Positions 41,528 to 46,243 of a stretch of DNA of 50,887 nucleotides are shown here, one piece after another. Under the pieces are notes generated by a model that worked only from the letters and a program-made list of their open reading frames with translations, searched no databases and had not been told where the DNA came from. Both the position numbers and the translations under genes were made by a program. The first letter of the stretch is position 1. Every line of letters begins with the position of its first letter. The DNA comes from Candidatus Gastranaerophilales bacterium (GTDB lineage: Bacteria; Cyanobacteriota; Vampirovibrionia; Gastranaerophilales; Gastranaerophilaceae): positions 1-50,887 of the forward strand of contig CALUTM010000007.1 of the NCBI GenBank assembly GCA_944323705.1. Direction: 5' to 3'.

Positions 41528-42541
41528 ATGAAGAGATTGATTATTTTTTTACTTACTGTATTTTTGTTTTTGACACCCGTGTTTGCGGAAAATATTGATG
41601 TCTTGCCGACGATGCAGAGCAAGTCTGCTGTTCAGGACAGAGTTTGGGTCGGTACATTCCAAATAGTTTGGAATGATTTTATGGATAAAATAGCCTTCAC
41701 TCAGATTAAATTTCCGGCAGGGACTCCGGTAATCGTTAACGAATTAAACAAACAGACATTTACGGCAGCGGATTTGCACGAGAAATGTTATTACAGATAT
41801 GTGGGTAAGATTAAGAAAAATACCAAAAAGGTTATTTCAAAGGCTATAAAAAGAAAATTCGGTGAAAAGAGCGATTTGTTGGACAGTTTAGATTTAACTC
41901 CCGCAAAAAATCGTTTTATTGTTTATGCAATGCTGAAGAAAGATTTCCAATTTATTCATCCTTTTGATAAGCTGGGCAAATCGGCTTTCAGAGATACAGA
42001 GGCAGAATTTTTCGGTATAAACGGGGAGTCGGATAAGATACTTGATAGTGGTGTAAGAGTTCTATTCTATAACAATCCGTCAGATTTTGCGGTAGTGCTT
42101 GATACAAGCGGTGAGGACGAAGTTTATTTGTATAAAACCGCTAACACCAAAGCCTTCACCAATCTGTATTCCGACATGTTCAAAAAGAGAGATGCTTACG
42201 AGGGTGAGACAGAATTTCAAGATGCGGATGAACTTAAAGTGCCTAATTTGAAATTCTTTGAAGAAAAGTCTTTTGATGAAGTATGCGGAAAACGAATTAA
42301 AGGATCTAATCTGGTTATAGAACAGGCTATGGAAACAATCAGTTTTAATATGGATAATAAGGGCGTTCAGCTGAAGAGCGAGGCTGCTATTACGGCTATG
42401 ACAACGTCATTGCTTCCTGAAGTCGAACCGCGTTATTTCTATTTTGATGATACTTTTGTAGTGTTTATAAAAGAAAAAAATAAAAATAAACCGTATTTTG
42501 CCCTAAGGGTATACGATATTTCGAAATTTCAGGGCGAATAG
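41528..42541 (+). CDS. Exported serpin-like protein
   Basis: A 337-residue exported protein (signal peptide 1-20, VFA). The C-terminal third looks like a diverged serpin: a hinge-like KGVQLKSEAAITAMTTS, then YFYFDDTFVVFIKEKN and FALRVYDI, matching the serpin pattern of hinge, reactive-loop region, PF-x-F-x-I strand and final strand. AMLKKDFQFIHPFDKLGKSA (about 134-153) resembles the serpin strand before the breach. The serpin N-terminal helices are not recognisable, and at about 317 mature residues it is shorter than usual serpins. This is homology by eye; protease inhibition is unproven. TAAAAT (41513-41518) ends 9 bases before the ATG. Confidence 0.6.
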   Translation: MKRLIIFLLTVFLFLTPVFAENIDVLPTMQSKSAVQDRVWVGTFQIVWNDFMDKIAFTQIKFPAGTPVIVNELNKQTFTAADLHEKCYYRYVGKIKKNTKKVISKAIKRKFGEKSDLLDSLDLTPAKNRFIVYAMLKKDFQFIHPFDKLGKSAFRDTEAEFFGINGESDKILDSGVRVLFYNNPSDFAVVLDTSGEDEVYLYKTANTKAFTNLYSDMFKKRDAYEGETEFQDADELKVPNLKFFEEKSFDEVCGKRIKGSNLVIEQAMETISFNMDNKGVQLKSEAAITAMTTSLLPEVEPRYFYFDDTFVVFIKEKNKNKPYFALRVYDISKFQGE

Positions 42542-44722: not shown

Positions 44723-45295
44723 ATGAGTTATGTATTAATTGTTGGAATTATAGTTTTAGTGTTTGTTTTTTGGATGTACGGTATTTACGCATCATTAATC
44801 CGAAAGAGAAATAAGGCTATGGAGGCTTTTTCCTCCATAGATGTTCAGTTAAAAAAGAGGTATGATTTAATCCCCAATATATTAACGATTGCTCAAAAAT
44901 TTATGGAGCATGAACGCGGCTTGATGGAGGAAGTAACAAAATTAAGAACTCAGGTTGCGGGAATTCCTGCTACATTTGAGAATATAGACAGAAAAATCGC
45001 ATTGGATGGCGAAATTGCCCAAAAAATGGGACAAATTATGGTTGCTGTTGAAAATTATCCGCAATTGAAATCCGATGAGACAATGGTAAATGCGATGCGG
45101 ACTTATAATGAAGTAGAGGAACATATTTCTGCCGCAAGAAGGTTTTATAACTCAGCTGCGAATGAACTTAAAAATGCAGTTGAGATTTTTCCGTCATCGT
45201 TTTTTGCCAGAATGATGAATATAAAAGCTGTTGATTTCTTTAAGGCGGAAGAGATAGAGAGACTGCCAGTCAGAGCTTCTGAATTTTTTAATTAA
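44723..45295 (+). CDS. lemA: LemA family protein
   Basis: A 190-residue protein with an N-terminal membrane helix (about 4-24) followed by the LemA helical bundle: YDLIPNILTIAQKFMEHERG (about 50-70) and TYNEVEEHISAARRFYNSAA (about 130-150). The LemA family is widespread and its role is poorly known; it is often near membrane proteins of DUF3137 type, as here. GAGAGG precedes the ATG. The next gene starts 9 bases after its stop. Confidence 0.95.
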   Translation: MSYVLIVGIIVLVFVFWMYGIYASLIRKRNKAMEAFSSIDVQLKKRYDLIPNILTIAQKFMEHERGLMEEVTKLRTQVAGIPATFENIDRKIALDGEIAQKMGQIMVAVENYPQLKSDETMVNAMRTYNEVEEHISAARRFYNSAANELKNAVEIFPSSFFARMMNIKAVDFFKAEEIERLPVRASEFFN

Positions 45296-45304
45296 GGTGT
45301 AAAA

Positions 45305-46243
45305 TTGAGCGAAGATAAAACATATCCGCAGATGCGAAGAGAGTTTCAGGAAGTTTTTTTTAACAAACTTTCTCCTGCTCTGAAACAATTTGAAGGTGAA
45401 AGAAAATTAAAACTGGTTTTGGCGTGTATATTGTCGGGTCTTTTGTCAGTATTTGCATTGTTTTTACTTATTTTTGGTGTTTTGTGGGCACCGGATACAA
45501 ACGATAAGGCGGAAACTTTAAAGTCAGTTGTGTTTGTATTTGCTCTTGCCTGGGGTGTCTGGTACTGTATCAAAAAAAATTTTGAAGGAAAAATTAAGAA
45601 AAAAATAATGGGGAGTGTCTGCAAGTGCTTTGGAAATATTGAATGGTCTGAGTGCTTGTATCAAGGCAGGGAGATATTTACGATTGCCCATTTAATTCCT
45701 TCATATACTTCAAGTGATTATGACGATATTTTTTACGGTAAGTACAAGGATGTGAACTATGAGATTATAGAAGCGGAATTTATGCGGCGTTCGGGGAAAT
45801 ATTCTACGACAGTATTTAATGGCGTTATTGTAAAACTTGATATGAATAAATCATTTAAAGGCAATACGGTAATTTACCCGAATTCGTTGATGCATTCTTC
45901 ACCCGCAACGGGTTTAGTGCATACCGAGCTTGAAGATACGGTTTTTGAAAAGAAATATGATGTTTTTACAGACGATGAGGTGGAAGCAAGATATCTTATA
46001 ACCCCTTCTTTTATGGAGCGGCTAAACAAAATGAAAATTGCGTTTTCTGCGGATAAAGTTTCTTGTGCATTTTGGGATAAATATTTACTGGTAGCACTGC
46101 ACACAAGAAAAGATTTGTTTTCTCTCTGTTCGCTTTTAAAACCTGTAAATGACGGAAAACAGTTTTTTACGATGTTTGAGGAAATTTTATCAATAATAAA
46201 GCTTATTGATTACTTTAAACTTGATGAAAAGATAGGGCTTTAA
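45305..46243 (+). CDS. DUF3137 membrane protein
   Basis: A 312-residue protein with two adjacent membrane helices (about 40-62 and 72-88) and a long soluble domain. It fits DUF3137, the usual operon partner of LemA: Galanin-like features are absent, and the C-terminal stretch VEARYLITPSFMERLNKMK with KYLLVALHTRKDLF is typical of the group. The start is TTG at 45305, with AAGGTG just upstream. Probably co-transcribed with lemA in an envelope-related pair. Function unknown. Confidence 0.85.
   Translation: MSEDKTYPQMRREFQEVFFNKLSPALKQFEGERKLKLVLACILSGLLSVFALFLLIFGVLWAPDTNDKAETLKSVVFVFALAWGVWYCIKKNFEGKIKKKIMGSVCKCFGNIEWSECLYQGREIFTIAHLIPSYTSSDYDDIFYGKYKDVNYEIIEAEFMRRSGKYSTTVFNGVIVKLDMNKSFKGNTVIYPNSLMHSSPATGLVHTELEDTVFEKKYDVFTDDEVEARYLITPSFMERLNKMKIAFSADKVSCAFWDKYLLVALHTRKDLFSLCSLLKPVNDGKQFFTMFEEILSIIKLIDYFKLDEKIGL

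Follow-up and report, generated by a model that had tools for sequence, protein, structure and literature searches.

A Gastranaerophilales protein of the serpin superfamily with a replaced, highly conserved hinge and a predicted reduced N-terminal region

The stretch of DNA analysed here (the window, 50,887 nucleotides) has its closest named contigs among MAGs of Candidatus Gastranaerophilales. It carries an open reading frame, starting with ATG and ending with TAG, for a serpin-like protein of 337 amino acids (Table 1). The gene is flanked by an aminotransferase gene on the opposite strand and, on its own strand, by a gene for a TPR-SLT lytic transglycosylase. Window positions 44723-46240 contain a LemA-family gene with a DUF3137 gene immediately after it; the two were found again downstream of the SLT gene in many relatives, with insertions between in some. 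The protein begins with a hydrophobic signal peptide that ends near ...PVFA-E, in keeping with the sequence-only reading of this locus, which had called it exported; it would be periplasmic or secreted. A loose lipobox-like pattern was matched in the signal-peptide region of 20 of 120 homologues. A lipobox-like Cys lies within the signal peptide of L149, L142, L164, L172 and L176, and some family copies may, going by this residue, be lipoproteins.

Table 1. Positions of the serpin-like gene and its features in the window (aa, amino acid positions of the encoded protein).
Feature	Position	Strand	Basis
ORF of serpin-like protein (337 aa + stop TAG)	41528..42541	+	homologues in 296/383 genomes of the order
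Predicted signal peptide, aa 1-20 (MKRLIIFLLTVFLFLTPVFA)	41528..41587	+	sequence; low pLDDT
Strand plus helix RVWVGTFQIVWNDFMDKIA, aa 38-56, motif WxGTFQLxWN	41639..41695	+	AF2, VIA, conservation; s6B-helix B by inference
Helix assigned to helix F, aa 99-111	41822..41860	+	AF2; profile alignment from here to C-terminus
Strand s3A, aa 130-142 (FIVYAMLKKDFQF)	41915..41953	+	AF2, profile alignment, conservation
Strand s5A, aa 268-275, carrying E269 (E/Q)	42329..42352	+	AF2, conservation, alignment
Hinge GVQLKSEA, aa 279-286, replacing inhibitory GTEAAAAT	42362..42385	+	alignment, conservation, dN/dS 0.014
Variable reactive-centre-loop equivalent, aa 287-302 (AITAMTTSLLPEVEPR)	42386..42433	+	pLDDT <50 at 287-299; column entropy; dN/dS 0.138
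s1C, s4B, s5B, aa 303-328 (YFYFDDTFVVFI...PYFALRV), serpin signature region	42434..42511	+	Pfam, AF2, conservation, alignment

The C-terminal part had been taken as serpin-related, and profile comparisons bear this out. The Pfam Serpin model (PF00079) aligns residues 252-330 of the window protein to profile positions 298-369 (E=2e-4; 21.2 bits, below the curated cut-off of 27 bits) and matches 32 of 45 homologues. Among the homologues, L219 (40% identical; BLASTP E=1e-76) exceeds the same cut-off with 27.5 bits and retrieves alpha-1-antitrypsin from the PDB (E=1e-3), where a phmmer search with the single window protein found no serpin. The signature [LIVMFY]-x-[LIVMFYAC]-[DNQ]-[RKHQS]-[PST]-F..., a PS00284-like pattern, occurs in 23 of 120 homologues as against 0.1% of shuffled sequences; the window protein itself has no match to it and carries Asp308 at one position. 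When aligned to the canonical serpins of the phylum, the family profile runs without gaps through 69 columns, from s5A to s5B (residues 262-330), with a Gly-to-Phe loop spacing of 31, the usual value in canonical cyanobacterial serpins. HHalign, run on an alignment free of the canonical serpin L205, gave a probability of 15% between the family and canonical serpins (P=0.0017; 0.6% for the reversed control), colinear from helix F to s5B. A value of 99.8% proved to be an artefact of L205 inside the query alignment and was discarded. Serpin-model matches in three genomes (G009, G071 and G074) were set aside as chance, the proteins lying outside the family-search set and that of G009 being dihydrolipoamide-dehydrogenase-like. 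Searches of NCBIfam, PHROGs and plasmids found no relatives of the serpin-like protein. Judged by these sequence comparisons, the C-terminal similarity to serpins exceeds chance. Most family members tested go unrecognised by current family models.

Structure prediction, which had been proposed as a check, gave no fold other than that of serpins. Template-free AF2 produced a serpin fold with both of two alignments (pLDDT 83.0 and 84.4), comprising sheets A, B and C and the surrounding helices, with the helices before helix F reduced. The top 50 Foldseek rows of the AF2 model were all serpins (E 7.6e-10 to 5.6e-8), as were all 50 VIA rows for the two models (top Z 18.9 and 19.3), in which about 250-270 residues aligned and the match spanned residues ~26 to 337. 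Given the low profile-profile probability, the serpin case leans largely on AF2, which was itself trained on serpins. On homology and predicted fold together, we assign the protein to the serpin superfamily.

Secondary structure was taken from the AF2 model and the elements were named from the known serpin order. Before helix F, the model has strands at 38-41 and 88-94 and helices at 43-56 and 68-74. After s3A, it continues with strands at 147-154 (s4C), 157-164 (s3C) and 176-183, 186-193 and 197-203 (s1B-s3B), a helix at 210-223 (hG/hH) and strands at 235-239 (s2C) and 241-248 (s6A), and it closes with strands at 303-305 (s1C), 310-316 (s4B) and 324-328 (s5B). From helix F to the end the protein counts 238 residues and alpha-1-antitrypsin about 245, so the shortening falls before helix F. 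The fold is predicted to be reduced rather than incomplete, with the sheets present and about 55 residues fewer before helix F. Of the earlier description of a serpin-like C-terminal third with an incomplete fold, the reduced N-terminus stands, while the model extends the similarity to a near-complete serpin core. The N-terminal helices had also been called unrecognisable; this holds by sequence, with an HHalign probability of 3.5% for the N-terminal part alone (query alignment still containing L205), but not by structure, since two AF2 models place this part in the serpin fold. Because the VIA rows start at serpin N-termini, residues 38-56 are preferably read as s6B-helix B, which would imply loss or reduction of helix A, helix D and the helix E/s1A stretch. 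For the N-terminal part by itself, HHalign preferred s2A-hE over s6B-hB, without significance and with the L205-containing alignment; given this disagreement with AF2 and VIA, the s6B-hB assignment is kept as putative.

A departure from inhibitory serpins lies in the hinge, which the sequence-only reading had described as less small and regular than theirs. The motif ExGTEAAAA at P17-P9 is reported for inhibitory serpins, among them most of the prokaryotic members covered (PMC8233489). The window protein has G-V-Q-L-K-S-E-A there, with Gly279 as P15, and the family consensus is G[VGA]x[LV]KSEA, whereas canonical serpins of the phylum have GTEAAAAT or near it and share the family's G-to-F spacing of 31. 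Weighted frequencies across 120 homologues reach 98% for G279, 93% for K283, 90% for S284, 97% for E285 and 96% for A286. AF2 predicts a strand at 279-284. The register of the hinge may be off by about four residues (K-SEAA-I on G-TEAA-A), in which case the hinge would look more canonical. Under usual gap costs, the gapless register was preferred to a four-residue insertion (SEAA on TEAA) in a simple profile alignment, a choice that changes under low gap costs. The shutter and breach residues of inhibitory serpins are absent as well. Taking N186, H334 and W194 of a1-antitrypsin as the reference positions, we found Tyr133 at the shutter Asn position (100% of the family), E269 at the shutter His position (E/Q in 95%) and Phe at the breach Trp position, F140 or F142, with the s3A register uncertain by one residue.

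Selection differs along the chain. Over 23 independent pairs, dN/dS was 0.051 for the mature part, 0.014 for the hinge and 0.138 for the loop, and none of the regions tested in these pairs showed positive selection. The block of highest mean column entropy, and thus the most variable of the protein, is formed by residues 291-300.

The family occurs in 296 of the 383 genomes of Gastranaerophilales (29 of 52 genera), nearly always in single copy. The class sample yielded only one match outside the order, a weak one (G649, E=9e-6); this match aside, the family is confined to Gastranaerophilales as far as searched. Five genomes of the window's genus without the gene have the SLT gene, with no remnant beside it. 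Tandem copies occur in a few genomes, three in G290 and two each in G262, G167, G323 and G061. Such tandem loci lie at G290:C19:5582-8893, G262:C6:62073-64182, G167:C1:315004-317086 and G323:C63:28187-30280, and also at L067; the loops have diverged between the copies, possibly as a lineage-specific diversification.

Gene neighbourhoods vary. In the window's genus the neighbours are the aminotransferase and SLT transglycosylase genes; in other genera, a Penicillinase_R (BlaI-like) regulator and a small unknown gene come before the family gene, and a RadA-like gene comes after it. The latter set recurs at several loci (e.g., L141:4055-8417). No partner was common to all genera compared. Across genomes, the family showed no link in co-occurrence with Peptidase_S8 or Trypsin_2. 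The window's genome has a sole Trypsin_2 (HtrA-like) match, at G000:C20:8854-9243, and no Peptidase_S8 match; the HtrA-like protein is a candidate endogenous protease. A specific role against host or microbial proteases, which had been suggested from gut bacteria that use serpins in this way, did not find support: the gene is order-wide and mostly single-copy, evolves under purifying selection, lacks a consistent neighbour and does not co-occur with the candidate proteases tested.

The function usually ascribed to bacterial serpins is protease inhibition. Canonical ones (miropin of Tannerella, siropins, thermopin and those of other cyanobacterial lineages) share with the family the fold, the strand order from helix F to s5B, Gly at P15, the G-to-F spacing of 31 and the FxxDxxF signature region. 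They differ in having a full N-terminal part, the ExGTEAAAA hinge and scores over the Pfam cut-off, whereas the family is shorter before helix F, with a GxxLKSEA hinge and altered shutter and breach residues. Ovalbumin, CBG and HSP47 are non-inhibitory animal serpins that serve as carriers, chaperones or storage proteins; like the family they combine the serpin fold with a hinge off the inhibitory consensus, but they retain the full helix set and have no close sequence relation to it. Deviations in breach and shutter are also found in the Group U serpins of Streptomyces, whose function may be non-inhibitory (PMC8233489). Those proteins are clearly alignable by BLAST and many have an inhibitory hinge (PMC8233489), neither of which holds for the family. 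The role of serpins in many prokaryotes has been called enigmatic (PMC8233489). We found no report on serpins of Gastranaerophilales or Melainabacteria in the part of the literature covered. As far as searched, what is new here is a Gastranaerophilales clade of the known serpin superfamily without the inhibitory hinge.

The reading that we favour, with moderate confidence, is that of an exported protein, derived from a serpin and kept by vertical inheritance, whose hinge probably forms a strand of sheet A already and which would not be a classical suicide inhibitor. It would descend from a full-length serpin by shrinkage of the region before helix F, and its metastability machinery would have been swapped: the hinge GTEAAAAT for G[VGA]x[LV]KSEA, and the shutter Asn/His and breach Trp for Tyr, Glu/Gln and Phe. 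As a strand of sheet A, the hinge would point V, L, S and A (at P14, P12, P10 and P8) to the core, and x, K and E (at P13, P11 and P9) to solvent. This alternation, the predicted strand at 279-284 and a nearer match to cleaved or latent serpins together suggest that the hinge already lies within the sheet. Both AF2 models are closer to cleaved, loop-inserted or latent serpins than to native ones in VIA, although AF2 may favour loop-inserted states in general; for model 2, most of the top 14 rows have titles that name a cleaved or loop-inserted serpin, and the rows after them are largely latent or peptide-complexed ones. With the hinge built in, the protein would be a stable, relaxed scaffold instead of a spring-loaded suicide inhibitor, and the variable loop at 287-302 could form an exposed, lineage-adjustable contact or cleavage site. 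The analysis shows the export signal, the homology, the predicted fold, the conservation and the pattern of selection, from which we go on to infer the relaxed state, a role in binding or as a scaffold, and that suicide inhibition has been lost; the usual mousetrap action is probably gone.

The main competitor to a relaxed scaffold is a functional inhibitory serpin whose hinge is unusual, which we regard as unlikely. A gut or periplasmic protease would cut at about T293-S294, the loop would insert as s4A and the enzyme would be trapped, the ultra-conserved hinge being retained since insertion requires it. A hinge that is conserved ahead of a loop that varies is seen in inhibitors too, the inward V/L/S/A positions are compatible with a strand, the loop is as long as in canonical cyanobacterial serpins, and the genome encodes a trypsin-like, HtrA-type protein. 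Yet P12, P11 and P9 are bulky or charged (L, K, E) where inhibitory serpins have small residues, the shutter and breach residues are replaced, and the HtrA-like protein occurs regardless of whether the serpin-like gene is present. The raised dN/dS of the loop fits an inhibitor, but it is still purifying, with no sign of positive selection. Loss of function altogether, in a decaying former serpin, has hardly any probability: about a fifth of the order's genomes are without the gene, and five near-relatives have no remnant beside the SLT gene, but the reading frame is open in the relatives listed, dN/dS is near 0.05, and nearly invariant positions persist at 25-82% identity. Also very improbable, if slightly less so than decay, is an unrelated protein whose C-terminal beta strands resemble those of serpins by chance or convergence and onto which AF2 forced a serpin model. 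It would agree with the sub-threshold Pfam score, the N-terminal third without sequence similarity and the low uncontaminated HHalign probability. It sits poorly with a homologue above the Pfam cut-off, a signature enriched among homologues, a gapless alignment with identical loop length, colinearity from hF to s5B, high pLDDT across most of the mature chain and the same fold from two alignments.

A reduced serpin with a hinge replaced yet ultra-conserved, retained by most members of a gut bacterial order and overlooked by family models, would constitute a natural experiment on the serpin fold once metastability has been given up, and its roughly 300 homologues offer a ready set for testing. 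Tentatively, and with less confidence than in the favoured reading itself, we suggest that the whole order may have remodelled a serpin as an exported scaffold locked in the relaxed state, in which the hinge would be a constitutive s4A strand and the N-terminal helices would have been dropped, leaving a gene that is widespread and single-copy and would serve a new function other than inhibition.
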